Source of the DNA: Pseudomonas sp. EpS/L25
GTDB lineage: Bacteria; Pseudomonadota; Gammaproteobacteria; Pseudomonadales; Pseudomonadaceae
Direction: 5' to 3'
NCBI RefSeq assembly: GCF_001512295.1
Contig: NZ_LNUP01000014.1
Coordinates: 1 to 64,000 of the forward strand
DNA: 64,000 nucleotides
Part shown: positions 1 to 14,034 of the stretch, in pieces
Numbering within the stretch: position 1 is the first letter of the stretch
Layout of the letters: each line of letters starts with the position of its first letter
The notes under the pieces: model-generated
The model's database searches: none
Seen by the model: the letters and a program-made list of their open reading frames with translations, nothing else
Told to the model about the DNA's origin: nothing
Made by a program: the position numbers and the translations under genes

Positions 1-120
1 AACAGCATCACCTACGATGCCCAGGGTCGGATGACGAGCTACAGCCAACGCAATGGCGTCACCGTCAGCGTCGAGCGGGATGCCCAGGGCCGCATCGTCA
101 CGGTCAAGGATCACAACGGC
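1..120 (+). other. RHS/YD-repeat coding fragment on the plus strand (partial)
   Basis: Read in frame 1 on the plus strand, this stretch gives two successive YD repeats (ITYDAQGRMTSYSQ, then VERDAQGRIVTVKDHNG), a clear RHS signature. It enters from outside the window and loses RHS character after about base 115-125. Beyond that point the coding strand is the minus strand (the giant FN3 gene). The long plus-strand frame that continues to 1554 is only the antisense of that gene. The fragment may belong to the RHS part of the same giant gene, inverted by rearrangement or by an assembly fold-back. Confidence 0.65.
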
Positions 121-3100
121 AAAGCTGCTGGTATTGCCACTGGCGTTCCAGACCAGACTCGCCTGGCCGCCGATGACCATGCCGTTGGTACAGATGCTGT
201 CGTAGCGGATGCTGCCCCACAGGGCGAAGCTCCAGCAGCCAGCGGCGCCATTGAGTTGATCGTCCGGGTCGAAGCTCTGGAGGGCGACGATGCGATAGGG
301 AATGATGGCGACGTCGCCGGACTCCAGCGTCGTCGGCACGGGCCTGAGGTACTCGATCCTGACCCGGGCATCGCCCGAGGGCAGGTTGGACGTGAGGTTA
401 TCGGCGCGGATGAGCCCATAGTTGGTCAGCGTCAATTCGCCCTGGAAGACATCCCCCCGGCGCATGGGCGGCAGGTTGATGGCAAGGGGCTCGATCAGGA
501 CCAGGGCCGTGGGCACATTGGTCTTGAAGGTCGCGTTGAGGAGGATGTCGTAGCGATCCTGAACGGAGATCTCCTTCACCGACCACTCCACCGTGACCAG
601 CTTGCTCTTGAGGAAGACCCGCTCGTCCTGGGTCAGGCCCGGCTTGATCCACAGTTGCCCGGTCAGGTCTTCGTGATCCCAGGCGGACAGGCGATAGCTG
701 TACTCGCCCGCCGGCAGATCCTTGAGCAGGGCTTGTCCTTTCTCGTCCGTACTGGCGGCGAACTCCGCGCTGAGCACCTTGCGGTTCTGCAGCTTGATCC
801 GCGCGCCCTGCAAGCCGAGGATGCGCTTGCCCTGCTTGTCCAGGGTGCCGGTGTAGATGTCTTCGACCTGGAAGATCACCCCACCCTTGCCGGACTGGTT
901 GACGGCGATGCTGAGCGGGATGTCGACCACCGGGTGGTTGTCGCTCTGCACCCGCAGGGTGAAGTAGTAATCGCCCTCCGCCAAGGTTTCCGAAGGCGTG
1001 AAGGCCACGCTCATCAAACTGCTCGCCCCCACCGGCAGGCTGGCAATCCAGTCCGGCGTACGCAGGCTGACCCAGGCCGGCGCCGCGCTGCCCTGGTCGT
1101 TGAGCAGGCTGATGCGCGCATTGCGCAGGACATCCAGCCCGGTGTTGCTCAGGCTCAGATTCTCGACCTGCTCGCTGCCACGGACGGCCCCGGTACGCAG
1201 TTGCGCGGGTTGTACGCGCACCACGGGCGAGGCTTCGCCGAGGCTGTACTGGATGCGCGTCTGACCGATCGGCTGCGCGAGATCGTCGGCGACGAGGCGA
1301 TAGTCCAGCAGGCCGCTGGCGGCGGCCGTGTTGTCGCCACTGATACTCAGGGTCAGGGTGCCCTGCTGCTGGGCCGTCAGATTCAGCGGGGCGGACTGCG
1401 TCACTCGAATACCCGTTGGCAGACCCGTACTGGTGGACGGCTGCACGTATTCGAGGTGGACGTTCTGCAGGGCGGTGTCATGCCCCGCGGCCACGACGAT
1501 ATCCACGCGCTGTTCGTAGTTCTTGGGGAAGCTGACCTTCACCAGCGCGGGTGAGTAGGTCGCGCCCTTGATCGAGAACTTGCCACTCTGGGGCCTGGCG
1601 TCGAGGTTGGGATGGATGACCGACACCTGATAGTTGCCCGAGTCGGTCAGCGCGGTGGCATGCCGATACTCGAAGGCGCCCTGGGTATCGGTGGTCACGC
1701 TGAAGGTCCGCTCGAACCCGCGGGTCGCCAGGACGAGCTTCAATTCGACGCCGGCCAGAGGCTGCTTGGTGTCGCGCGCCAAAGCCCGGCCACGCAGGAT
1801 CACCGTCTCCCCCGCCTGGACGGCCTCAGGGGTCACGCTGGTCAACTCGCCGTAATAGGGCGTTTTCGCCAGGGTCAGCTCGCGACTGCTCTGGGCACCG
1901 GCGATCTGCAGCTCATCGGCCTGCCCCGTATGGTAATGCAGGGCAGAGGCTTCCAAGCGCAACCGCACCCGCTCCGGCGCCCCTTCGGGAACCAGGAGAC
2001 TGAACGGTCCGGCATCCACCGTCTCGAGCCCACCCACACGCGCCACCGTCCGGCCATCCCGCACGGTGACGAGGGCCGTGCCCACCGACGCCTTGAGCGG
2101 CTCGCTGGTCAGGATGTTGCCTTGCAGGTCTTCCAGGATCAGCCGTGTTTCGGCCGAAGGCTGGGTACCATTGCCCTGTGCGGTGATCAGTTCGGTCGGC
2201 ACGGCCGTGGGATTGGTCAGGCGCAGGCGCACATTGCCCTTGGCACCGGCAACCCATTCATCCGGAACGAGCTCGACCAGTAGGCCGTTCGTTCCTACCG
2301 GCAGCGACTGTTGTCGGGCGACCCGCGCCTCCTGGCCCGACTGCGGGGCATAGAGCACCTGGGTGGTGAGGGAGGTGGTGCCGGTGAGGTCTTGATAACC
2401 ACCGACCACGACCCCGACCTCGCTGGAGGCCCCCGGAGCCAGATCGAAGAAGGACGAGTAGTGCTGCTTGATCTGACCTTGGGTTTCGACCCCTAGGGCC
2501 AGGCGCAACCGCTTGAGTTCGTGCGTCCCCTGGTTGACGACCCGCACCCGCAGCTCACTGAACACGCCACGCTCCAACGGCGGCGTCGATAGCACCTGCG
2601 CCTGTAAGGAAGGCAGGAGCAAATCGCTGGGCAGACTCTCGACGCCTTGGGCATCCACTGCCGTCACGCTATACAGACGCTCACCCGTGAAGGGTACGGT
2701 GACCGCGGCGTCACGATAGGAGGACTGCGTCAGCAGCGTCCGATTGAGTTTCTGAGCCACCCCGTTGAGCTTGGCATAGACGTTGTAGCCGGCGATGCCC
2801 GTGCCTTCGTGCTCCCACTGCAATACCGGTACGGCGTCGGCCGTCGCCTGGATGGTCAGGTTGCGTACCGGCAGCAACTTGGCATTCAGGTAGACACTGG
2901 TGGAGGGTGGTGACTCGTTGCCAATGGCGTCCACCGCTGTAACGGCATAGGTGTGCTGCTGGCTGGAGGGCTGGGTATCGACCGTCGCCGTCTGGGTCAG
3001 GTCCGCTTGCAGCGCGGTCAAATTGGCAATGTCCAGGGATTCGCCTTGTGCCACGGCGGCACGGTAGAGCCGATAGGTCTTGACGTTGCTGGCTTCAGAA

Positions 3101-6100
3101 GCCTGCCAGTTCAAGGCAACCCCGCCCCCCGTCAGCTCGGCCTGCAGCCCCGTGGGCGCCTTGGGTGCCCGGCTGACCACCTCGACCTTGATCGGATCGC
3201 TCGGCAGGCTCAAGGCCTCTGCGCCGTCATGCTTGCGAATGCTGGCGACCCGATAGTAGCAGGTGCCATCCGCCAAACCCGCCGCGGCGAGGTCATCCAG
3301 GTATTGCAGCTGCGTCGTCCGTCCCAACTGGGTGAAGGCGCTCTCGCCTTCCGCGCGACGAGACACCGCATAGCTATCGGCCTCGGCGACCGCGCGCCAA
3401 TTGAGTTCCACGCGGCCACGCGCGAGGGCCTTGCCCGTCAAGCCCTGGGGAATGTCGAGCGGTGGCAGGTCGCCTGTATAGACCTGGAATTGATTACGAC
3501 CGCGGATGGTTTGGCCGACGTTGCCCAGGGCATCCGTGGCCTGATAGGAGAAGCTCAGGAGCTGAACCTTCTTCGCACCCAGGTCCGCGGGCAAGGTGAA
3601 GCTGCCTCGGTATACCGGGGCATCGGCAGAGGCGGTGGCGTCGGCGACCAGAGCCAGGGGCCCCGGAATGGACGAACTCGGCGCGCCATCGACGTTGACG
3701 GTCAGTTGCGGCGTGGCGACGACCGCCTCATTGAGGCCCAGCGCAACCTGCACCGTAACGCTCTCCCCCGTACGCGCCACATTGCGGATGGGATGCGCAG
3801 GTTGCAGGGTGAGTTGCTGTACCTCCGGCCCCTGGGTATCGACCTTCAGGGTCTTGCCATCCAGGATCTCCGTGCCCTCGTTGCCAGCGGCATCATGGGC
3901 CGAGACGCGCGCATAGAGAGTGCCGGCCGGCATGGCCGAAGTCAGGTCGAAGCTGCCCTGATACAGCAGCGGATCGCTAGCGGCCTTGGTCATCCGTACC
4001 GGGATCGACAGGCCGTCGGGCATGTCCAGGCTGAAGAAGGGCGCGTTGCGCAGTTCTTCGCTCATCACCAACTCAACCTGAACCTGACCACTGCCATAGC
4101 GGCCATCGGCAGACACCGGACCAGAGCTGGAATACCGAGCGACCTTGACACGCGGTCCGGTGCGGTCGATGCGAGCGGACTGTGGCGTCGACAGCGCACT
4201 CTCGGAGCCCAAGGCATTGACGCTGCTGACACGGTAGTAATAAAGGCCGTCTTCAGCCGGGCGATGCTGATAGCTGGTGCTTTTCAACAAAGCGCTGTTG
4301 AGGCGCGTCACGCCCGCCTCACCTGGAGTGGTGAAAGGCTGGGTGGCGTAATACAGGTTGTATCCTGCGGCGGTACTGACATTGCCCCATTGCGCCTGGA
4401 TGACGCCCCCGGACAGGGTCGCAACCTGCAGACCCGTTGGCGCATCGGGAATGGAGGTGTCCAATAGCACCTGAACAGCCGCACTCGCCGTGCCAAATTG
4501 GGTTCGGCTGGTGTAGCGGAGTTGGGCGGTGAGGCTATTAATGCCTGGTTTTAAAGTGACCGGTAGCTCTGCGCTGCCTGACCTATCGAGCAGTACCTCA
4601 CCAATAGCCTCACCGTTCAATGCGATTCGCGCCGTGGTACCTGCCGCCCCCTGCAACAGCACTCGTTGCAGCGCATCCTTGGTCTGCTTCAGACCACTGA
4701 GCAAGCGAAGCGTGGGCGCTGCTGGGGGTGGGAGGGAGACATGGAAGGGACGTACAACCTCACTTGTATTATCAAGCGTATCTGTCAAGACAACGCGCAA
4801 CTCATGATTACCGTCTGCAACGCTCTCTGCATCGAAGGAAAACCTATAAGTGGCACCATCCTTGCGCAAAATGGGTAGATTAGCATTATCGACTTGCAAC
4901 TGAATGCTGGCCACACCCGACACATCATCCGCTTGAAGCTGAAACTCCCCAGAGAGCAAATCTTGATTCTGAGCCAAGACATCTACGATGCTAGAATTAT
5001 CGCGCCAAATAAAACTTTTGAGATCAGGACCTCTCGTATCGGCCAACAAATTAACTTCTACAGGAACCACCGAGGGGTCGTACCCTCCGCTTATATTCTT
5101 AGCCACTACCGCAGCATAATAGGTCGCACCAACCTTCAAACCAGATATCGAAGCTGCCAGACCCGCAACCGGCACCGAAAGTCTGGGCTGCATACCTGAC
5201 ACATCATTGAAATTATTCTCAGAAACATAGACATCATACTTTTTCACATAGAGAGAAGGCGATGAAGCATCCCAAGAAAGCTCAAAACTATTGACATCCG
5301 CTATGGATCGAAGCAAATCAGGGTTTCTTAAAAGAATAAAAGCACTCCCACTTTCAGGAAGGTTGCTTTGATTATGAGCTTTGTCAAAAGCCCCCACCTT
5401 ATAATATAGAAGCTTGCCATTGAGCGAAGGATCCAACCCTATAATTTCACTACCACCAGACAAATTAACTGTGGAAATTACGGCTTCGGGGCTAACGCCA
5501 TCTGAAATCACCAAGAAGGCATTCTCTACACCTGATACGTCATCTGAAGCATTATAGGAAACCCTCACAGAATTAAACGAAACCTGTTCGATCGAAAGCA
5601 AGTTAGCGACAGGCACTTCCTTATCAAACAAAACAGGCTCACTTGGATTAGACCAAGCCTCCCAAGTCCCACCATTATTTATGCTTCCTCGAACGCGGAG
5701 CCGATAAGACTTGCCTGTTTCACCCTCTGCCCAGGAAAACACATCGACGTTACCTACGAGAGCCTTATACAGGCTAGCTCCTGTCTCACCTAGGACCTCC
5801 ACTTCATAATTATTGAGACCTAAAACTTTTGTCCAACTCCACCGAGCGCTCACATTGGCATAGGCCTCTTGCGTAACTGGCCTTACCACTGTATAGCCCG
5901 AAATATCCATGAAGTCGTAAGGCGCCGCCTTGTCAACGACATAGCCTTCACCGTCAGAATACTTAAAAGACACTGCTGACTCTGGCTGCACAGCTTCTGC
6001 CTTATTGCAGCCCAGCTCAGCGTACACCCCGTTCAACCCTTGAATGCCGATGGTTGCACTACTACCCCGACTTACGCTGTCCAACAGGTTTCGATATTGA

Positions 6101-6588
6101 ATCTTAACCTCATTGGTCCCTTCATACAGCACCACTTGAAAGGTACCCATAGGCAAATTTGACCCATAAAAATATTGATTCGTCCATTGGACTACCAGCT
6201 TTCTATTGGGTGCATCACCAACAGTCAGATATTCGATTTTTCCAGGAATCTGACTTGGCGAATCCGTCCTGAGATCGTCCCAGAACGCATAAATAGTGGC
6301 CCCCATGCTTGGAAAGCATGAATTATTATAAGCGCTAGTGGCATTCTCGAATTGCAGCAGCCCATTGGTCGAAGCATAGAAATTGGTATAGATCCGACCT
6401 TGCATGGCAAACTCAAAGCCTATCGGGAAGGGGCCTGCCACATAGTCGTCACCGGCCAAATTTGTATTTATCGCAGCATAGGATTTCGACATCAAAAAGC
6501 AACTTAACAACACAAAAAATAACAATCGACAGCTAAAATCCCAGAAAAGAGGATTCAACAAAAATGAGATCCTTGGAAAAACTCTCAT
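1..6588 (-). CDS. Giant exported fibronectin-III/Ig-like repeat protein (partial, 3' end outside or broken)
   Basis: This open frame has no stop over 2196 codons from ATG 6588, which has a good AGGAAGG Shine-Dalgarno about 8 bases upstream. Residues 1-38 form a signal peptide (hydrophobic LLFFVLLSCFLM, cut after SYA). Residues ~40-190 resemble a nidogen/GEVED-like surface domain (AFWDDLR, KLVVQWTNQYFYGS, GTFQVVLYEG). From ~200 to ~1300 come FN3-like modules (APTGLQ, YNLYYA, YYYRVSSVN and similar). A carboxypeptidase-regulatory-like module sits near residues 1580-1640, then further Ig-like modules. The last ~40 codons (bases 1-120) are antisense to YD repeats, so the true frame probably ends or switches near base 120. 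A surface or secreted adhesin/toxin-carrier role is inferred. It is last in the gspCD array. By eye, bases 4500-6588 are clearly AT-richer than 120-4500. Confidence 0.8.
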   Translation of the reverse strand, partial: MRVFPRISFLLNPLFWDFSCRLLFFVLLSCFLMSKSYAAINTNLAGDDYVAGPFPIGFEFAMQGRIYTNFYASTNGLLQFENATSAYNNSCFPSMGATIYAFWDDLRTDSPSQIPGKIEYLTVGDAPNRKLVVQWTNQYFYGSNLPMGTFQVVLYEGTNEVKIQYRNLLDSVSRGSSATIGIQGLNGVYAELGCNKAEAVQPESAVSFKYSDGEGYVVDKAAPYDFMDISGYTVVRPVTQEAYANVSARWSWTKVLGLNNYEVEVLGETGASLYKALVGNVDVFSWAEGETGKSYRLRVRGSINNGGTWEAWSNPSEPVLFDKEVPVANLLSIEQVSFNSVRVSYNASDDVSGVENAFLVISDGVSPEAVISTVNLSGGSEIIGLDPSLNGKLLYYKVGAFDKAHNQSNLPESGSAFILLRNPDLLRSIADVNSFELSWDASSPSLYVKKYDVYVSENNFNDVSGMQPRLSVPVAGLAASISGLKVGATYYAAVVAKNISGGYDPSVVPVEVNLLADTRGPDLKSFIWRDNSSIVDVLAQNQDLLSGEFQLQADDVSGVASIQLQVDNANLPILRKDGATYRFSFDAESVADGNHELRVVLTDTLDNTSEVVRPFHVSLPPPAAPTLRLLSGLKQTKDALQRVLLQGAAGTTARIALNGEAIGEVLLDRSGSAELPVTLKPGINSLTAQLRYTSRTQFGTASAAVQVLLDTSIPDAPTGLQVATLSGGVIQAQWGNVSTAAGYNLYYATQPFTTPGEAGVTRLNSALLKSTSYQHRPAEDGLYYYRVSSVNALGSESALSTPQSARIDRTGPRVKVARYSSSGPVSADGRYGSGQVQVELVMSEELRNAPFFSLDMPDGLSIPVRMTKAASDPLLYQGSFDLTSAMPAGTLYARVSAHDAAGNEGTEILDGKTLKVDTQGPEVQQLTLQPAHPIRNVARTGESVTVQVALGLNEAVVATPQLTVNVDGAPSSSIPGPLALVADATASADAPVYRGSFTLPADLGAKKVQLLSFSYQATDALGNVGQTIRGRNQFQVYTGDLPPLDIPQGLTGKALARGRVELNWRAVAEADSYAVSRRAEGESAFTQLGRTTQLQYLDDLAAAGLADGTCYYRVASIRKHDGAEALSLPSDPIKVEVVSRAPKAPTGLQAELTGGGVALNWQASEASNVKTYRLYRAAVAQGESLDIANLTALQADLTQTATVDTQPSSQQHTYAVTAVDAIGNESPPSTSVYLNAKLLPVRNLTIQATADAVPVLQWEHEGTGIAGYNVYAKLNGVAQKLNRTLLTQSSYRDAAVTVPFTGERLYSVTAVDAQGVESLPSDLLLPSLQAQVLSTPPLERGVFSELRVRVVNQGTHELKRLRLALGVETQGQIKQHYSSFFDLAPGASSEVGVVVGGYQDLTGTTSLTTQVLYAPQSGQEARVARQQSLPVGTNGLLVELVPDEWVAGAKGNVRLRLTNPTAVPTELITAQGNGTQPSAETRLILEDLQGNILTSEPLKASVGTALVTVRDGRTVARVGGLETVDAGPFSLLVPEGAPERVRLRLEASALHYHTGQADELQIAGAQSSRELTLAKTPYYGELTSVTPEAVQAGETVILRGRALARDTKQPLAGVELKLVLATRGFERTFSVTTDTQGAFEYRHATALTDSGNYQVSVIHPNLDARPQSGKFSIKGATYSPALVKVSFPKNYEQRVDIVVAAGHDTALQNVHLEYVQPSTSTGLPTGIRVTQSAPLNLTAQQQGTLTLSISGDNTAAASGLLDYRLVADDLAQPIGQTRIQYSLGEASPVVRVQPAQLRTGAVRGSEQVENLSLSNTGLDVLRNARISLLNDQGSAAPAWVSLRTPDWIASLPVGASSLMSVAFTPSETLAEGDYYFTLRVQSDNHPVVDIPLSIAVNQSGKGGVIFQVEDIYTGTLDKQGKRILGLQGARIKLQNRKVLSAEFAASTDEKGQALLKDLPAGEYSYRLSAWDHEDLTGQLWIKPGLTQDERVFLKSKLVTVEWSVKEISVQDRYDILLNATFKTNVPTALVLIEPLAINLPPMRRGDVFQGELTLTNYGLIRADNLTSNLPSGDARVRIEYLRPVPTTLESGDVAIIPYRIVALQSFDPDDQLNGAAGCWSFALWGSIRYDSICTNGMVIGGQASLVWNASGNTSSFAVVILDRDDAALGIPLDADGDAIALAVARHPTLGIVGDAV

Positions 6589-6654
6589 AAGCACGACCTT
6601 CCTTAGCCAAGCTAATTTCAGACTAAACCATCAACGGTCAAACCAGTGCACTGA

Positions 6655-7497
6655 TCAGTCTAAAAACACTCGAAGCCTATTATCACTAGGCGTAAACAGC
6701 TGATAGCGCAGATCTTTTTCGTTGACGTAATAATGGGCCCCTACGTATCGCCTACTAGCACTGGCATCATCATAAAAAATATAAGAGGAATCTACTACTA
6801 TCCAACGCCCTCCGTCGTACACCTCCAGCCAGTCATGCAAGTCACCCGAGGTCAATCTTTCATCAATGGAGGTAGACACAAACCCTAAAACTCTCCTAAC
6901 GGTCACACCGTTACGAGCCAACAGCTCACCAGCCAACAACATATGCTCAGTACAATCACCCGCTTTTTTGGACAGTGCATAGGTCGCTCCTTCCACCTGC
7001 CTATCGATTCCGGTGAACTTTATATTCCCTACCATCCACCCGTAGATAGCACGGACTTTTTCTTGATAGCTCAATCCCGCAAAGCTTTCAGCCAGGGCAA
7101 ACAGTTCGGAAGAAGGCGTCGCAGTCAAAGGATAAGCTTCCGCTACGACGTTCTGCTGCGCCTTACTCCCCATACCTACAAATGAAAGTCTTACTCGCTT
7201 TACTGCAAAAGACCCGAAGCTACCCACCGCCAATCTAAATCTTTCACCCTCCACAATCACCGGCACCGAAGACTCCACCCTCCACTCGTAGGAGGCCCCA
7301 TTGAGGGTCATAGGCAAAGCACCTTCGACCTGAGCATCAACCACTATCGAGGACGCCGTATTTTGCAGGCGGAGATCAAACTCCACGACTTGACTCCAGG
7401 CAAACCTGGGGAAAACACTAATTGCAATAATACAGACCAGCCTTATCCGCAAGATCCTTCGAAATACTCGCCACCTGATTAAGAACATCTCTGACAT
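6655..7497 (-). CDS. Exported transglutaminase-like (papain-fold) protein
   Basis: 280 aa. An arginine-rich n-region and hydrophobic core (VCIIAISVF) with a likely cleavage near AWSQ (residues 33-36) form a signal peptide, so it acts in the periplasm or outside. The transglutaminase-core triad is visible: Cys182 in GDCTEHMLLAGELLA, His221 in HDWLEVYDGGRW, Asp236 in VVDSS. The ~100-residue N-terminal part is beta-rich and unassigned. It may cross-link, deamidate or cleave a partner; the giant FN3 protein directly downstream (66 bp) is the obvious candidate, by inference. The start overlaps the upstream gene by 80 bp. A TTG at 7452 would shorten the overlap and still leave a signal peptide. Base composition is AT-rich for the window. 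Confidence 0.75.
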   Translation of the reverse strand: MSEMFLIRWRVFRRILRIRLVCIIAISVFPRFAWSQVVEFDLRLQNTASSIVVDAQVEGALPMTLNGASYEWRVESSVPVIVEGERFRLAVGSFGSFAVKRVRLSFVGMGSKAQQNVVAEAYPLTATPSSELFALAESFAGLSYQEKVRAIYGWMVGNIKFTGIDRQVEGATYALSKKAGDCTEHMLLAGELLARNGVTVRRVLGFVSTSIDERLTSGDLHDWLEVYDGGRWIVVDSSYIFYDDASASRRYVGAHYYVNEKDLRYQLFTPSDNRLRVFLD

Positions 7498-8125
7498 GCT
7501 CTGCCGTGTCGAAAGAGAGATAAAGCCCTGGCACCGGGTTTATCGAAAAGAAATCGAGAAAAGCGGCCTGATCTTCAGGGCGTACGAAGAGCACTATCGG
7601 CTTGGTACTGCTTGCAGCTCTCTTCGCCAGGATCTTTGCCGCTACTCGTGCAGGATCTCGTATGGATAGGCGCTCCAATCCCCTGCCCGAGACGATCTTT
7701 TCTTTCCCGATGAAGTAACCTTCCACCTTGCCGGCCAGGATATTGGTGGCCAGACGGTCGATCGTAATCACCAGCCAATCCCAGGCAGGCGCCTTCTGTT
7801 GAGCCAAGAGACGCTCACGACCACCTACAAGAAAATGTGCCGAGTGCAAGCCCTGGCTCAAGCCCAACTCCTGACAGAGGCTACTCGCCAACAAGACGTC
7901 ATAGGCGGGTAGCAATAAGCTGATTCGCTCCTGCGAACCTTTCAAGCGAGTGGGCAATAAGGCGGACGTCATCGTCCAGGCCCCTTTGACGGCGCCATCC
8001 CCATTGACATCGATCAGCACCTTGCCCGCCTTTTCGCTCCAGCAATCGGATTCAGTAGCGTAGGCTGCTGTCGACAGAAAGCCGCCTAGAGCGACAAGTG
8101 CGCAAGACCGTAGGATGCTATTCAA
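7418..8125 (-). CDS. Exported protein of unknown function in the gspCD array
   Basis: I do not recognise the family. The frame is open from 8197, but the best start seems to be TTG 8125, which overlaps the gspD stop and gives an N-terminus NSILRSCALVALGGFLSTA with a signal peptide cut after AYA. The mature ~215 residues begin TESDCWSEK and end LYYCN. They carry three cysteines, a short DVNGDG stretch that could be a Ca-binding loop, and alpha/beta-like segments (WDWLVITIDRLA, PIVLFVRPED). It is probably periplasmic and co-transcribed with gspC and gspD. A role as a partner of the secretin or of the giant exported protein is inference only. Confidence 0.6.
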   Translation of the reverse strand: MNSILRSCALVALGGFLSTAAYATESDCWSEKAGKVLIDVNGDGAVKGAWTMTSALLPTRLKGSQERISLLLPAYDVLLASSLCQELGLSQGLHSAHFLVGGRERLLAQQKAPAWDWLVITIDRLATNILAGKVEGYFIGKEKIVSGRGLERLSIRDPARVAAKILAKRAASSTKPIVLFVRPEDQAAFLDFFSINPVPGLYLSFDTAEHVRDVLNQVASISKDLADKAGLYYCN

Positions 8126-9914
8126 TTTTATATCCCATACTGGCTGCAGACTTGTCGATATAGCGATACCGTCCTCCCGTGACCAACTGCGCATCATCGA
8201 CCGTTCTGATGATGCGCGGCTGAATGAAGATCATCAGATTGTTTTTCTTCTTACTCTTATTATCGCTCTTGAATGCCGCGCCGATGATGGGGATTTTGCC
8301 CAAGAAAGGAACTTGGGCATCGCCATTCTGGGACTCGTCGGAAATCAACCCACCCAATACCAACGTCTGTCCATCCTGAACCAAGACACGGGTTTTTACC
8401 GAGCGCGTATTGGTGACGATGTCCTGTGCCTGGGCCACTCTGGAGTTAGACACACTGGATATTTCCTGCAGGATGTCGAGGGTTACCGCATCTCCTTCAT
8501 TGACCTGAGGCTTGATGGTGAGCGAAATGCCTACGTCCTTGCGCTCGATCGTCTGGAAGGGATTGCTTACCGGTGTGGCAGCGCTGGTGGAGCGCCCCGT
8601 GACGAAGGGGACGTTTTGACCAACGATGATCTTCGCCTCCTCGTTATCCAGGGTGACCAGGTTGGGTTTGGACAGGATATTCAGCGCATCCTGGGTCTCC
8701 AGAGCCCTGATCAAGGCGCGCAACGAGCCGTTTCGATAAAAGCCCAGTGAGAGCCCGCTCAGAAGATTAGGCGTTTCGTTGGGCGCGCCACCGCCGTCAC
8801 GATAGAGGGTGCCACCGAACCAGCCGTCCCCGCCCACCGCACTGCTAGCCGTTCGCCATTCAACGCCTAATTCCTTTCTGAGATTCTCAGAGACTTCGAC
8901 GATCACCGCTTCAACGAGAACCTGTGCACGACGAATGTCGAGTTTCTTCACGACGTCATCTATTGCCGCCAAGACTTCCGGCGGACCTGTCACTACCAGG
9001 GCATTGGTCGATTCGCTCGCCTGGATACTGACGTCCACAGCCGCGTCGTAGACATTCAACTTTTGCTTTTGAATACTGGTGCCTAAACTCTGCACGATAG
9101 GCAAGGCATCCGCTGCCCTCAGGTAGTGCAGATAGATGACCTTGGTATTGCCGACACCCTGTACTTTGCGATCTAGCTTGGCGATAACTGCCTTGACCTG
9201 GCGCCGCATCACTTCGTCGCCCGCGATGACGATACTGTTCGTGCGAACGTCAGCCCCTATGGCAAAGAAGCTTTCTGGAGAGTTCGTCTGGGGCTTGGGA
9301 AACAGGCCATTGACCATGGCGAGAATATCAGCCGCATTGGCGAAGCTCAGGGGAACGACGTCCGAGTTCACTTGCCAAGACTGATCGAGCCGCTTCACCA
9401 ATTCATCAAGTTTTTTCAGATTGGCCGCACGATCAGCCGCTATTATAAAGTTCCGATCAGGATAGGCAGCCAGATAGGCTGACTGCGAAACCAAAGGCTT
9501 CAAGATATTAACCAGCTGCGTAGAGGAAACGTTATCCAGCTTGTACAACTTGATTGCGGTGTCCCCGGCCACTCCGTCGACGGCACCTACCGGCAAGCTT
9601 GAAGACTTGGCATCTGCTTCTGGAATGACCTTGTATATGCCGTTGTCATTGACAAGAGCATAGCCATTCACACTGAGGACCGTGTTCAGCAGCTGGTTCA
9701 AATCCTCATTCTCTATGGGCCCATTGGCCGTCAATGTCACACGGCCTTTAACTCGAGGATCCAACACTATCTTCTTACCGGTTTGGCTAGCCACCCATTG
9801 AATGAGCGTCCGAATATCCGTATCTTCCAGATCGACACCAAACTGCTCATTTTTGCTTTCCGCCACTGCTGAAAAAGCCAAAAGCATTAAAGAAAGAAAA
9901 ACAACCACTCTCAT
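8118..9914 (-). CDS. gspD: Type II secretion system secretin GspD
   Basis: 598 aa outer-membrane secretin. A signal peptide (VVVFLSLMLLAFSAVA) is followed by the N0 domain (FGVDLEDTDIRTLIQWVA, ~25-95), then N1, N2 and N3 ring domains (KLYKLDNVSSTQLVNIL near 120, VVPLSFANAADILAMV near 185, KVIYLHYLRAADALPIV near 265). The secretin core includes LNILSKPNLVTLDNEEA and VGQNVPFVTGR near 415-445. The C-terminus (MIFIQPRIIRTVDDAQ and a short tail) lacks a long S-domain. The family forms the outer-membrane channel through which folded exoproteins leave. It overlaps gspC by 4 bp (ATGA), so the two are coupled. No other T2SS gene (E to M) is in the window, which makes this an orphan C-D pair. Confidence 0.92.
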   Translation of the reverse strand: MRVVVFLSLMLLAFSAVAESKNEQFGVDLEDTDIRTLIQWVASQTGKKIVLDPRVKGRVTLTANGPIENEDLNQLLNTVLSVNGYALVNDNGIYKVIPEADAKSSSLPVGAVDGVAGDTAIKLYKLDNVSSTQLVNILKPLVSQSAYLAAYPDRNFIIAADRAANLKKLDELVKRLDQSWQVNSDVVPLSFANAADILAMVNGLFPKPQTNSPESFFAIGADVRTNSIVIAGDEVMRRQVKAVIAKLDRKVQGVGNTKVIYLHYLRAADALPIVQSLGTSIQKQKLNVYDAAVDVSIQASESTNALVVTGPPEVLAAIDDVVKKLDIRRAQVLVEAVIVEVSENLRKELGVEWRTASSAVGGDGWFGGTLYRDGGGAPNETPNLLSGLSLGFYRNGSLRALIRALETQDALNILSKPNLVTLDNEEAKIIVGQNVPFVTGRSTSAATPVSNPFQTIERKDVGISLTIKPQVNEGDAVTLDILQEISSVSNSRVAQAQDIVTNTRSVKTRVLVQDGQTLVLGGLISDESQNGDAQVPFLGKIPIIGAAFKSDNKSKKKNNLMIFIQPRIIRTVDDAQLVTGGRYRYIDKSAASMGYKIE

Positions 9915-10624
9915 TTTTGTTCCCCATGAGCCAGCGACTTCAACCGGCTCAGCTTTTCAGCAATCTCCGGCTGCACACCTGAGAAGCCCTGCTCAACACT
10001 GCCAGGCATGCGGGCGGTTTCTTTAGTCTCGACCTCTTTTGTCGACGGCGACTGGATAATGCGATCAACAGGTAGGGTGCCCTGATCCCCGCCTTTGGTT
10101 CGTTCAAGTCGGACAGATCTCAAACCGTCAGCATCCGTTACCAGAACTTCCTTATCCTGTACGGAAACGAGCTTGAGTCCATCAGTCAGAAAATCCCCTG
10201 CATAGTAAATCCGTTGTCTATCTCCATTGAGGGAAATAATGGCAGCCGCTTTGCCCTCGGCAGAACCAGCCAAAACACCATGCAAGGCAATCGATGTGTT
10301 GGACTTTTCTTTGGGCGCTTTGGGTAAGACTTTTTTGGCGTCGCCAAAAAAACCTTTAAGCCTTCCGATACTCTGTTCAGAAGGGGAGCCCGCTTGAATC
10401 GCTATCGGCGCCTGGGTTGGTGAACTCGCTTTTTTCTCGTATTGAGAAATAGTGAGAATCACGCTGATTTTCGAATAGACATACCAAGCACCGAGACCTG
10501 ACATAAGAAGAACGCAGGACATCGGCAGGACATAGGGAGCCCGTGGCTTCATGGTGAGCACACGAAAAAAATGCGCATCGTCCCCATCCTGGGAAATGCG
10601 CATTCGAGTGACGCTAGTGACCAT
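9911..10624 (-). CDS. gspC: Type II secretion inner-membrane clamp protein GspC
   Basis: 237 aa. After a ~25-residue cytoplasmic leader there is one transmembrane segment (YVLPMSCVLLMSGLGAWYVY), a linker rich in K/P/S, and a periplasmic HR domain (IALHGVLAGSAEGKAAAIIS, IYYAGDFLTDGLKLVSV, VLVTDADGLRSVRLER). This is the GspC/XcpP layout. GspC links the inner-membrane platform to the N0 domain of GspD, fitting its place directly upstream of gspD with a 4-bp overlap. ATG 10624 is taken as start; ATG 10552, just before the membrane segment, is also possible. The C-terminal ~50 residues are poorly conserved-looking and lack a PDZ domain. Confidence 0.82.
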   Translation of the reverse strand: MVTSVTRMRISQDGDDAHFFRVLTMKPRAPYVLPMSCVLLMSGLGAWYVYSKISVILTISQYEKKASSPTQAPIAIQAGSPSEQSIGRLKGFFGDAKKVLPKAPKEKSNTSIALHGVLAGSAEGKAAAIISLNGDRQRIYYAGDFLTDGLKLVSVQDKEVLVTDADGLRSVRLERTKGGDQGTLPVDRIIQSPSTKEVETKETARMPGSVEQGFSGVQPEIAEKLSRLKSLAHGEQK

Positions 10625-11146
10625 GCGGCCTGTATATGAGCTGACATAAGCATCCTTGCCTAACTGTCGATATCCGTATCCGGATGGTTCGCGACCTTGA
10701 GCTATCCAGTCGAGGCGCTCGAACTATCCGTCTGTCAAAGCCGTTCTCGGTCTCTAGCACGAGAACTTCTGGAACCTGGCTGCTGCCGCTTCTGTCTTAA
10801 GGAGGGCTTAAGCCCTACCGGGATAAAAAGAGCGCATGAGTCGGGGCAGATCCTAGCCCGTGAACCTCGGCACAATCAAACTGCCATCGGACCCTTAAAA
10901 CAGTAATACTAATACAAGAAAAAACAAACTCCTGAAATGAAGCCTCCCCCAAGAAAAACCGATAAACCCTCCCAAAATCCAGAAAAGCCTGAAATTATCC
11001 AAAAATAAGCATGGAAGCCATTTTCTGAGTTTTTAAACATCGGCAATGACAGCGCAAAATAGCAATACTAACAAGGCAAAACCTCAGGCTAGCTACTTCC
11101 TTCATGGCTATCAGCTGACAACACCCTTGTAGACAGGAGGTCGTTG
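10625..11146. other. Intergenic region upstream of gspC
   Basis: About 520 bases without a convincing gene, AT-rich in the middle (10880-11090). It must hold the promoter of the gspC array. The only structure seen is a 12-bp perfect palindrome GGGCTTAAGCCC at 10804-10815. No clear -35/-10 pair could be assigned. Confidence 0.4.
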
Positions 11147-11305
11147 ATGGCCGATACAAGGTCGCGCGACCAACTCTTACGGCTGCGCCAGACGGTGGTC
11201 CCAACAACTCGGGGACTATTGGAATGCGGAGCACCGCCGATAGACCAGCTCACAGAATTGAACAGCGCGAGTACGCGATGTCAGCGGGCGCAAGCCAGGG
11301 TTTGA
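11147..11305 (+). CDS. Possible 52-aa small protein
   Basis: A short frame with a strong Shine-Dalgarno (AGGAGG, 6 bases before the ATG) encodes MADTRSRDQLLRLRQTVVP and onward to QRAQARV. It is basic, has no signal peptide or membrane segment, and I recognise no family. It lies alone between gspC and a LysR gene. The ribosome-binding site is the main support; it could be a remnant or chance. Confidence 0.3.
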   Translation: MADTRSRDQLLRLRQTVVPTTRGLLECGAPPIDQLTELNSASTRCQRAQARV

Positions 11306-11313
11306 CCCGCTGA
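11281..11313. terminator. Hairpin between convergent small ORF and LysR gene
   Basis: TCAGCGGG (11281-11288) and CCCGCTGA (11306-11313) form an 8-bp perfect stem with a 17-base loop just past the LysR stop. There is no T-tract on either strand, so a rho-independent role is weakly supported. Confidence 0.3.
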
Positions 11314-11327
11314 CCTTTATCTACCGG

Positions 11328-12188
11328 CTACAACCGAAAGTCCTCAGCGATCAGCGCCGCCAGGCGGGCGCAGGCCAGGCTGCGTTCGCCGGGCAGAGAG
11401 GCCAGGCGCAACTCGTGCAATGGCAGCGCTGGGAAGCCCTCGTCAGGCGAGAGCTCACGCATCAGCGGTGTCATCCGCGACCGGTCGGTGATGGCCACGG
11501 CCTGACCGAGCTCGACCGCCGCCTCCAAGGCCGAAGAGGCCGCGCTGGTCATGACCGTGTGCCAGCGCCGACCCTGGCCGGTCAGCAGGTCGATACCCAG
11601 CTCGCGATAGCTGCAACCCTCGCCGTGCAGGGCCAGGGGCACGCTGGCGTCCGGGCTCAGCAGCAGACCGGGCCCGCCCACCCAGACCGGTTGGGTATGC
11701 CCGAACACCTGACCTTCCGGCTGGCCGTCGCGCGGCGGCCCTACCAGCAGCGCCAGATCCAGCAGGCCTTGGCCGAGCCAACGCCGGAGCTGTCCGCTAT
11801 TGCCGGTGAGTACTTCGAGAACGATGCCGGGGTGCTCGCCCTGGAGCCGCGGCAGTACTTCCTTGAGCAGGCGGGCGGCGTAGTCCTCGGCGATCCCGAA
11901 ACGCACCTCGCCCACCACCGGTTGGCCGGTGAGCCCGGCGAGGATGCGGTCGTGGGCCTGCAACAGTTCCGCCGTTTCGAGCAGCACGCGGCGCCCGAGC
12001 GGAGTCAGGGTCACGGCCTGGTTGTCGCGCTCGAACAGTCGGCCACCGGTCTGCTCTTCCAGCCGGCGGATCTGGCTGCTCACCGCCGAGGGGCTGCGAT
12101 TGAGCTGCAGCGAGGCGGCGCGGAACTGGCCCAGGCGGACGATGGTGTGGAAGGTGCGCAGGACATCGATATCGAGGGGCAGAGGCAT
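11328..12188 (-). CDS. LysR-family transcriptional regulator
   Basis: 286 aa, the normal family length. The N-terminal winged helix-turn-helix is plain (LDIDVLRTFHTIVRLGQFRA, SPSAVSSQIRRLEEQ, RLFERDNQAVTLTPLGR; residues ~5-65), followed by a periplasmic-binding-like effector domain (VRFGIAEDYAARLLKEVLPRL, ~95 onward). It is divergent from the EamA exporter gene that starts 97 bp away, the usual layout when such a regulator controls its neighbour. The inducer is unknown. Confidence 0.88.
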   Translation of the reverse strand: MPLPLDIDVLRTFHTIVRLGQFRAASLQLNRSPSAVSSQIRRLEEQTGGRLFERDNQAVTLTPLGRRVLLETAELLQAHDRILAGLTGQPVVGEVRFGIAEDYAARLLKEVLPRLQGEHPGIVLEVLTGNSGQLRRWLGQGLLDLALLVGPPRDGQPEGQVFGHTQPVWVGGPGLLLSPDASVPLALHGEGCSYRELGIDLLTGQGRRWHTVMTSAASSALEAAVELGQAVAITDRSRMTPLMRELSPDEGFPALPLHELRLASLPGERSLACARLAALIAEDFRL

Positions 12189-12285
12189 GATGCGCTTTTA
12201 TCGAACCATAGATGCCAATAATGTCGCTTGAGTGTATTACCACCCTGAGCCAGGCTCAAGGCATCCCGTCACCTGGAGCCTGGTC

Positions 12286-13203
12286 ATGTCCCCTGTACTG
12301 TCTTCGCCGTTGTTACGTCAATTCGCCCTGGTGCTGTGCTGGAGTGCCGGCTTCGTCGGCTATCGCTACGCCGCCGAACAGGCGCCCACGCTGTTGGTGA
12401 CACTGTGGCGCTTCGCCCTGGCCGCGTTGCTGCTGTTGCCCTTCGCCTGGGCCGAACTACGGCGGCTGCCGCTGCGGATCATCGGGCAGCAGGCGACCCT
12501 TGGCGCCCTCGCCTTCGCCGGCTGCATCGCGCCTGCGGCCAAGGCCATCGAACTAGGGGTCTCGCCTGGGTTGGCCGCCCTGCTCTCGGATCTGTCGCCC
12601 TTGCTGGTGGCCCTGGGTTGCTGCCTGCTGCCCGGCCAGCGCACCAGCGGACGACAGTGGCTGGGGCTAGCCCTGGGCCTGACCGGGGTACTGCTGGCCA
12701 CCGGGGCTGGATTGGGCCTGGGTGTGGCACCAGGTTGGGCCTATGCCCTGCCCCTGGGCGGCGCCTTGGCGCTGGCCCTGGCGACCCTGGTGCAAAGCCG
12801 GCTGCCGGCGGTAAGTCTGGCCCTGCCGACCCAGCTGTTCATTCAGCTTACGGCTAGCAGCCTGGTGATGACGGTAGTCGCTGGCCTGGATGGCCCGCTG
12901 CGGCCGCCGCTGACGCCTGGCTTCGCCTTTGCACTGCTCTGGCTGCTGATCCCGACACTACTCGGCTATGGCCTCTACTGGCTGTGCCTGCGCCAGGGCA
13001 GTCCCCAGGCGGTGAGCGGCGCCCTCTATCTCAGTCCGCCGGTGGCGCTACTCTGGGCCTGGGCCTGCTTCGACGAGCCGCTGGCACCCGGCATGCTGCT
13101 CGGCCTGCTGTTCGCCCTGGCCGGGTTGCTCTGCCTGAATGCGGCGGAGCGCGACGCGGATCGAGGCCACGCGGTGCCGGCGAACTGTGGTCAGCAGCCT
13201 TGA
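12286..13203 (+). CDS. EamA/DMT-family membrane exporter
   Basis: 305 aa from ATG 12286 (TGGAG upstream); the frame is open from 12232 but the earlier residues lack membrane-protein character. About ten transmembrane helices are visible in two EamA halves: LVLCWSAGFVGYRYAAEQAP and onward, and LALPLGGALALALATLVQSR and onward. The family exports small metabolites such as amino acids across the inner membrane. The divergent LysR gene is its likely regulator. Substrate unknown. Confidence 0.85.
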   Translation: MSPVLSSPLLRQFALVLCWSAGFVGYRYAAEQAPTLLVTLWRFALAALLLLPFAWAELRRLPLRIIGQQATLGALAFAGCIAPAAKAIELGVSPGLAALLSDLSPLLVALGCCLLPGQRTSGRQWLGLALGLTGVLLATGAGLGLGVAPGWAYALPLGGALALALATLVQSRLPAVSLALPTQLFIQLTASSLVMTVVAGLDGPLRPPLTPGFAFALLWLLIPTLLGYGLYWLCLRQGSPQAVSGALYLSPPVALLWAWACFDEPLAPGMLLGLLFALAGLLCLNAAERDADRGHAVPANCGQQP

Positions 13204-13378
13204 TCGGCGGGGCCTAGTTTAGGCAAGCACAGACATAATAATTGAGAGCATAGCTGCCTGTAGGACATTTCCCCAACTTGCCCCGCCACTTACAGATGAA
13301 AAGCTTCAACACACCAACAGCCGGAGTTACTTTTGAGATTTTCTCAGCCCCAGCTACAATGCATTTCATTCACCTCCA

Positions 13379-13936
13379 TCACACAGCAGACTTACCTACA
13401 TCCAGAAGCGCCTGGAATGCCTTACCGATTGAATTCTCCGTTTCTAAAATCTGACGAAGCGCAACTATGGCATGCTCATTGATATCCTCTTCACGAGCGG
13501 AGTCAGGAAGCGCAGCAAGCAAACTAGCTAAGACCTTCAACCTACTCACCTGAGACAAAGCATAAGCAACCCGACTATTAACATTCTCGGCAAATAAATC
13601 AGCTTTATCTATATACTGACTAGGCAGATCAAAAGTAACAAAGGAGACTTTCAAAAAGAAATCCTTGCGTACCTCTTGCGAATTTATTAGACCGACGACA
13701 TATGACTGGTCATGATCATCTGCAGTGATGTCGCTCCGCAGGCGAGCTATCTCAATCTGAGCAGCGCCAACAGGACCAGTCATCATTTGAGCAAGTAATT
13801 TTGCGCTTCTTTTTCGCTCATTTTGCCTTTGTAATTTATCAATTATCCAGACGCTTAAGGCTATCAGAGCAGCAACAGCCGTAGCGATTGCCCCCACAGC
13901 ACCCCAGTCTATTTTAGCACCCTCACAAAGCCACAT
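13379..13936 (-). CDS. Hypothetical single-pass membrane protein
   Basis: 185 aa, unrecognised. Start ATG 13936 has a GGAAG ribosome site. Residues ~10-32 form one transmembrane segment (WGAVGAIATAVAALIALSVW), followed by a basic stretch (RQNERKRSAK) and a mostly helical cytoplasmic domain with LINSQEVRKDFFLKVSF and a C-terminal helix. The gene and its flanks (about 13210-14180) are visibly AT-richer than the genes on both sides, suggesting recent acquisition. No partner gene is adjacent. Confidence 0.65.
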   Translation of the reverse strand: MWLCEGAKIDWGAVGAIATAVAALIALSVWIIDKLQRQNERKRSAKLLAQMMTGPVGAAQIEIARLRSDITADDHDQSYVVGLINSQEVRKDFFLKVSFVTFDLPSQYIDKADLFAENVNSRVAYALSQVSRLKVLASLLAALPDSAREEDINEHAIVALRQILETENSIGKAFQALLDVGKSAV

Positions 13937-14034
13937 AACTCTACTTCCATCAAAAATAAACGCAATCTTGAACCATGAAAACCCATATCAAACCGCCGCA
14001 CATCTTTTTGACTTACCAACAAGGAAAAACAGGT

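Follow-up and report, generated by a model that had tools for sequence, protein, structure and literature searches.

Bases 1-64000 of contig C14 (NZ_LNUP01000014.1) of Pseudomonas sp. EpS/L25, whose genome of 5.44 Mb is assembled in 18 contigs, form the window of 64,000 nucleotides analysed here. At its left end, the window probably contains the front half of a horizontally acquired Rhs-type polymorphic-toxin cassette equipped with type II secretion genes of its own, the back half of which is found on contig C13 of the same genome. The front half would be the gene series gspC-gspD-X-TG-giant, where TG denotes a transglutaminase-fold cysteine enzyme, giant a large FN3/Ig exoprotein, and X the protein encoded between gspD and TG. 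The back half would comprise an RHS protein with a private C-terminal tail, a small open reading frame (ORF) downstream of it, an Ig-rich protein called ex below, gspE to gspK, a frame-broken gspL, and gspM.

All five genes of the front half, first proposed in a sequence-only reading of the window, are real; they lie on the minus strand, tightly packed, and all except X have matches in Pfam or NCBIfam. The start codon of gspD overlaps the end of gspC (ATGA), X follows directly after gspD, and TG and giant are close behind, so that the array reads as one operon. N-terminal export signals of the array proteins were judged by eye. GspC scores over the Pfam T2SSC cut-off and under that of NCBIfam TIGR01713 (17.2 bits, cut-off 101.6). 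The same reading held that only the C and D components of a type II secretion system (T2SS) are present, called the pair an orphan, and suggested that it may borrow the rest of a housekeeping T2SS. The first of these statements is true within the window and false for the genome, and the orphan status is lost with it: a second gspE-M set of similarly low G+C lies on C13 beside RHS and ex. There, one strand carries, in this order, RHS, an ORF of 92 amino acids, ex, gspE, F, G, H, I, J, K, L and M, with neither C nor D. GspE and GspF are recognized with 712 bits (TIGR02533, cut-off 630) and 196 bits (T2SSF, cut-off 25), and GspM (91.5 bits) and GspL (69 bits) both exceed their Pfam cut-offs. Among the pseudopilins, G, I and J are over the Pfam cut-offs, K is at 24.7 against a cut-off of 26.2, and H is identified by its N-methylation motif alone. 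No gspN or prepilin peptidase gene was seen in either the C14 array or the C13 set. The gspL gene is split over two frames, its first codons being in another frame than the remainder (C13:147.5-149.3 kb; L010 7556-9250), and given this break the second T2SS may be non-functional in this strain.

Base composition and gene distribution suggest a link between the two pieces. The segment from gspC to TG (window 6595-10624) has 51.9% G+C and gspE-M has 53.1%, against a background of 66.8% in window 12000-64000 and 66.0% in guaAB on C13; giant (59.0%), ex (63.2%) and RHS (63.3%) are intermediate. TG was absent from all 12 other species of the genus that were searched. From the shared low G+C and this absence of TG in the genus, we infer that the C14 array and the C13 set are parts of one acquired island.

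Could gspC and gspD nevertheless be a specificity-and-pore module plugged into the housekeeping T2SS for export of the giant? The genome has four Pfam secretin matches, namely the window gspD, a PilQ-like secretin on C15, the housekeeping T2SS at C14:192-201 kb, and a type IVB-pilus-like cluster on C2 (the last three named by eye). A housekeeping machine is thus available, the window has C and D alone, and the break in gspL of the second set would also fit borrowing, as would Kistimonas (L131, L190; order D-rhodanese-like-TG-ex-giant-RHS) and Marinobacter (L180; D-rhodanese-like-TG-giant), where gspD stands beside the rhodanese-like gene and TG and the stretches covered show no further gsp gene. 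The secretins of Kistimonas L131 and Marinobacter L180 are candidates for real orphans, and borrowing may occur in such relatives. In EpS/L25, however, a gspE-M set with the same foreign G+C as gspC and gspD sits beside RHS and ex, and in Pseudomonas sp. BMS12 gspC-gspD and gspE apparently belong to one gene series across two contigs. With a second gspE-M set of matching composition in a genome that also has a separate housekeeping T2SS, borrowing finds no support here, and we regard it as very unlikely. Sequence identities run the same way: the window GspD is 70% identical to GspD of BMS12 and 34% to the housekeeping GspD of its own genome, and C13 GspE is 60% identical to its BMS12 counterpart (176 amino acids available) and 54% to housekeeping GspE. 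A search of plasmids with GspD gave EtpD and PulD as best matches at 35-37%, which is not informative.

BMS12 offers a parallel in gene order. One of its contigs (L154) reads giant', a glutaredoxin-like gene, RHS', a transposase (by eye), gspC, gspD, X, TG and giant, and a second contig (L062) reads giant, RHS, ex and gspE. Identity with the window proteins is 43-44% for X and 40% for TG, and gspC gives a weak match of 31%. The N-terminal piece of giant on L154 has no overlap in BLAST with the giant piece on L062, which a single gene broken by the contig ends would explain, and the two may join. The glutaredoxin-like gene between giant' and RHS' is at L154 3331-3684.

The association extends far beyond these two strains. 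A profile built from an alignment of six ex proteins was run over a collection of 84,980 species, each with a single genome; it found 159 relatives of ex, and the best 80 were examined, with counts covering the stretches fetched, many of them short. Among these 80 loci, RHS was found in 44, giant in 44, TG in 36, a rhodanese-like gene in 33 and at least one gsp-type gene in 31 (in 29 of these, D, E or F scored more than 60 bits). Twenty control windows, each of 20 kb and taken from nine genomes that were mostly of other species, yielded no RHS, no giant, no rhodanese-like gene, one weak TG and one gsp gene. Five of the six ex seeds had been found beside TG, and the TG counts are to that extent not independent of the choice of ex. 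When the comparison was confined to the 35 loci whose sequence extends 9.5 kb or more upstream of ex and 9 kb or more downstream, RHS and giant were both upstream of ex in 28, gsp-type genes were present in 20, and RHS, giant or TG was present in every one. For loci with TG out of range, whole genomes were searched, and TG was encoded in 12 of 12 (from author-chosen loci, two already known to have TG); ten regions around it were examined, nine of which have a rhodanese-like gene as its neighbour. A draw of 369 genomes from the class gave TG at E<=1e-10 in six, each with further cassette genes in the region; the same was true of seven of eight regions around TG-like matches, L060 being the exception. 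The same genes come together again in other genomes, and their co-occurrence is therefore not chance.

The RHS protein itself accounts for the toxin side of the proposal. The C13 protein gives 336 bits with RHS_repeat and 84.5 bits with the Rhs core family TIGR03696 (cut-off 32.5). Among 45 RHS proteins, body segments of the 36 longest are alike in 595 of 630 pairs, and the last 90 amino acids of all 45 in 3 of 990 pairs; their last 83-335 residues find a counterpart in few of the others, or in none. A conserved body with a private tail is, at the level of sequence comparison, the pattern of polymorphic toxins. An immunity gene would be expected in the gap between RHS and ex. In 40 of 43 loci this gap has an ORF of 60 amino acids or more (a fraction of 0.60 in shuffled gaps), with a median longest ORF of 174 amino acids; 40 pairs of gap ORFs are alike between loci, and some look transposase-like by eye.

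In the giant, it is the N-terminus that is private. The first 336 amino acids of the window protein match its own locus alone among the loci compared, and the conserved part, of about 1,800 amino acids, is what remains; the alignment with homologues in BMS12, L059, L061, L131 and L183 starts at residue 335-530. An RHS query was run against ten delta-type genomes; five had a match in a frame of more than 4,000 codons, and in all five regions fetched from these (L192-L196, Desulfobacterota) giant and RHS form a single ORF of 4,142-5,270 codons, some of which reach contig ends. The Pfam domains of one such ORF are fn3, Big and RHS, and the part of giant that is fused to RHS in L192-L196 is the conserved part. 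That giant and RHS act together is strongly supported by their fusion into one ORF, a conclusion drawn from gene structure. The fusion also makes the description of the giant as an FN3/RHS-type protein apt in substance: FN3 domains are indeed present, the RHS part seen in the window is antisense and probably an assembly overlap at the contig end, and true giant-RHS fusions are those of other genomes. No SpvB/TcB domains of the Tc toxin complex were listed by Pfam for RHS, ex or giant.

Secretion genes accompany the cassette in two ways. In type A, T2SS genes lie inside or beside the cassette, as in this genome, BMS12, Kistimonas, Marinobacter, Motiliproteus, a metagenome-assembled genome (MAG) of Chromatiales, and the MAGs L114, L122 and L129. 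In type B, a G-F-E-...-secretin-pseudopilin set follows ex on the same strand in 23 loci from Lysobacteraceae, Rhodanobacteraceae, Burkholderiales and others, standing after a second RHS gene in two loci and cut by a contig end in a few. A tree of ex made by a quick method comprised 80 proteins, from 79 of the 80 loci (L122 was dropped as it had no ORF) and from C13. On this tree the type-B label requires 2 changes against a shuffled mean of 20.1, and in one clade 23 of 25 rows have gsp-type genes that follow ex in the same orientation. Type B is tightly linked to the cassette and passed on by descent, and the type-A links are few and scattered; the weight of type A rests on the same-strand position within the cassette in BMS12, Kistimonas and Marinobacter.

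Several observations weigh against the cassette interpretation. As many as 49 of the 80 loci have no gsp gene in the fetched stretch, many of these stretches being short. The type-A label, found in 8 of the 57 rows outside the type-B clade (this genome and BMS12 included), requires 7 changes on the ex tree, as few as in 107 of 500 shuffles; type-A T2SS neighbours are thus not significantly clustered, nor is their number clearly above the one in 20 seen in controls. The type-B machine is not a canonical T2SS, judging from the one set tested (L099 14421-23415), since its secretin, which has TPR and cohesin-like parts, reaches neither the GspD nor the PilQ cut-off and its ATPase falls short of that for GspE. 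Some ten RHS tails have a segment in common (coverage about 0.2), so that the tails are not all wholly private; by eye, this segment resembles a Hint domain. The C-terminal 141 amino acids of the C13 RHS protein have no Pfam match, and no toxic activity can be named for them. RHS matches in the ten delta-type genomes were absent in two, weak in two and middling in one. TG was strong in 6 of 14 type-B genomes and weak or absent in the other 8 (Lysobacteraceae, Rhodanobacteraceae), and is therefore not indispensable to the cassette. Finally, the assembly has the two halves apart from each other and shows the terminal RHS fragment in inverted orientation.

The missing and scattered gsp genes are also what one would find if the exoproteins left the cell by another route and the gsp genes were mere neighbours, gathered by islands that collect secretion genes. 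The orientation of some type-A genes suits such an account, T2SS genes being tail to tail with ex in L113 and L063 and divergent from TG in L129. It is countered by the same-strand embedding in BMS12, Kistimonas and Marinobacter, by the clade that retains gsp-type genes downstream of ex, and by Bcn-A, an Rhs bacteriocin that depends on xpsD (PMC7259588). We consider export by another route unlikely. The notion of a dedicated exit for the giant, already present in the sequence-only reading, draws support from gene linkage and from the giant-RHS fusions, and the linked machine would, by analogy, export giant, RHS and ex.

What happened at the left end of the window matters for whether the locus is alive in this strain. 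The giant ORF runs from 6594 to the window edge and contains fn3, Big_13 and CarboxypepD_reg domains, with no RHS repeat listed by Pfam; the final 42 of its 2198 codons are antisense RHS, and the contig end cuts the gene. Window positions 1-127 are identical to the C13 RHS gene over exactly 127 bp and diverge beyond; no third copy of the stretch was found in the genome. Since 127 is a usual k-mer overlap length of short-read assemblers, the fragment is probably an assembly overlap, and RHS as a part of the window giant was rejected, the RHS stretch being such an overlap, antisense to giant. Were the left end a real inversion junction, the giant would be truncated and the locus dead. The tail-to-tail placement of the RHS fragment and giant, a repeat just upstream of the C13 RHS gene that is present at five other sites, and the broken gspL could all be read this way, but the exact 127-bp length and the full open frame of the C13 RHS gene speak against inversion, which is on balance doubtful; no reciprocal junction was seen in a search that covered the RHS start alone. 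The repeat in question, of about 130-140 bp, is directly upstream of RHS (L011 5565-5707), its five other genome copies exceed 120 bp, and by eye it resembles part of an insertion element. On the interpretation of a split cassette, this strain's copy may be decaying, with its halves apart in the assembly and gspL frame-broken.

TG was said to have an intact Cys-His-Asp triad, and it does: C182, H221 and D236 are invariant in all 39 rows of an alignment that comprises the window protein, 34 of the 36 loci with a TG match, and four further loci. LapG, too, has the transglutaminase fold. TG may accordingly be a surface-release or maturation protease of the giant, in the manner of LapG on LapA or CdrA, rather than a cross-linking enzyme; this concerns one step of the proposal, and we hold it to be a serious possibility, somewhat short of an even chance. 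The fold, the triad, and the best PDB relative by profile, 3isr (E 2.9e-18), which is named a transglutaminase-like putative cysteine protease, favour it, as does the example of LapG, a protease of the periplasm that releases the adhesin CdrA from the cell by cleavage (PMC4694147). The LapG family Peptidase_C93, however, matches one homologue, that of Kistimonas, under cut-off (E 0.028; 14.6 bits, cut-off 27), and was not listed by Pfam for the window TG up to E 1; moreover, TG is weak or missing in some lineages, and no cleavage site is known. In L056 (10843-11931), a second, longer protein after TG resembles by eye the N-terminal part of TG.

X has no Pfam or NCBIfam match; its AlphaFold model has a pLDDT of 62 and no Foldseek match at E<=0.001. 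Proteins that occupy its position in relatives are rhodanese-like, and hhalign of X against their family profile gives E 0.0012 with a probability of 19%, a weak result. An N-terminal model of ex, made from the BMS12 protein, has a pLDDT of 85 and is all beta; Foldseek against two libraries gave ten matches at E<=0.001, all with a TM-score under 0.2 and none pointing to a family, and a comparison of ex with PDB sequences gave a single match up to E 1, at E 0.097. The model suggests that ex consists of beta-sandwich-like domains in series, for which no named relative was found.

Taken together, the cassette would work as follows. Sec would take RHS, giant and ex into the periplasm, where TG and its rhodanese-like partner may mature or hold the exoproteins, and a machine made of GspC-M and GspD would pass them to the surface or the medium. 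The giant would be a stalk whose N-terminal part is specific to the lineage and serves recognition, and RHS a head carrying the toxic tail, the two forming one chain in some Desulfobacterota and two partner chains here. The private tip of the giant would make contact, upon which the RHS tail would enter or be released, and the small ORF after RHS is proposed to be the immunity gene. A wider generalization, which we offer tentatively and deem possible rather than probable, is that these loci encode a widespread and so far undescribed class of toxin apparatus that acts by contact. Its parts would be a giant stalk whose tip differs by lineage, a fused or partnered Rhs head with an exchangeable toxic tail, an ex scaffold, TG as a maturation protease together with its rhodanese-like partner, and a dedicated secretin/pseudopilus machine, exchanged between T2SS and type B in the course of evolution. 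Such an apparatus would be a T2SS-based counterpart of contact-dependent inhibition.

Coordinates of the main features are collected in the table. No Rfam match was found in window positions 1-14000 and no tRNA across the window; promoter and terminator patterns in 6400-11400 were fewer than in shuffles, and PADLOC gave no match for five proteins.

Table. Features of the proposed cassette in the window (contig C14) and on contig C13
Feature	Contig	Position	Strand	Remarks
gspC, type II secretion protein C	C14 (window)	9911-10624	-	Pfam T2SSC 44 bits, cut-off 27
gspD, T2SS secretin	C14 (window)	8118-9914	-	TIGR02517 502 bits, cut-off 351
X	C14 (window)	about 7418-8125	-	Start codon uncertain; sits where relatives have a rhodanese-like protein
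TG, transglutaminase-fold cysteine enzyme	C14 (window)	6655-7497	-	Transglut_core 53 bits, cut-off 23
Giant FN3/Ig exoprotein	C14 (window)	128-6594	-	About 2156 codons present, 3' end missing; Pfam domains
RHS gene fragment of C13	C14 (window)	1-127	+	Exact 127-bp match, opposite orientation to giant
RHS protein, 1396 aa	C13	161174-165364		Full open frame
ex, Ig-rich protein, 1335 aa	C13	155112-159116		Export signal by eye
gspE-M	C13	147555-155054		

The sequence-only reading knew of no described system with such a layout. That stands in so far as no Rhs toxin with its own gsp genes was recognized in the open-licence literature of PubMed Central (titles and starts of abstracts), and has to be qualified by a T2SS-dependent Rhs bacteriocin already in print. 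The T2SS, Rhs toxins, and T2SS-dependent activity of an Rhs bacteriocin are known; that literature showed no recognizable cassette that unites a machine of its own with giant, TG, the rhodanese-like protein and ex. If the proposal is true, the T2SS would be a delivery device for giant contact toxins, beyond enzymes, and the cassette would name four partner families without known function, i.e., giant, ex, TG and the rhodanese-like protein.

In its complement of C, D, E, F, G, an H-like, I, J, a K-like, L and M component, the machine resembles the canonical Gsp/Xcp T2SS; it differs in being split between two loci, interleaved with giant, TG, RHS and ex, and in its frame-broken gspL. The LapG-LapA/CdrA systems likewise have a transglutaminase-fold cysteine enzyme beside a giant adhesin-like protein, but here Peptidase_C93 gave no match over its cut-off in the proteins compared and the enzyme is linked to T2SS-type genes. 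Rhs-like toxins with a signal peptide were filed by Zhang 2012 under a default 'T2SS/Sec' label (PMC3482391), in a text with no match to GspD or secretin in 300,000 of its 357,715 characters. These toxins share with the present ones the signal peptide, the RHS filament and the private C-terminal tails, and some have N-terminal transglutaminase domains, which are inactive and fused (PMC3482391), whereas TG is a separate enzyme with its triad. The default label leaves the crossing of the outer membrane open, and the cassette would supply a concrete, testable route for it. The best outside support comes from Xanthomonas perforans, whose bacteriocin Bcn-A is an Rhs/YD-repeat toxin of 1,398 amino acids with an immunity gene; it is found in supernatants, and its activity was lost in a mutant of the T2SS secretin gene xpsD (PMC7259588). 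Compared by description, its locus has five ORFs, the Rhs protein and proteins of 124, 100, 290 and 145 amino acids, with no giant FN3 partner, ex or gsp genes among them, and Bcn-A uses the Xps T2SS of the host cell (PMC7259588); the cassette described here would bring a secretion machine of its own.

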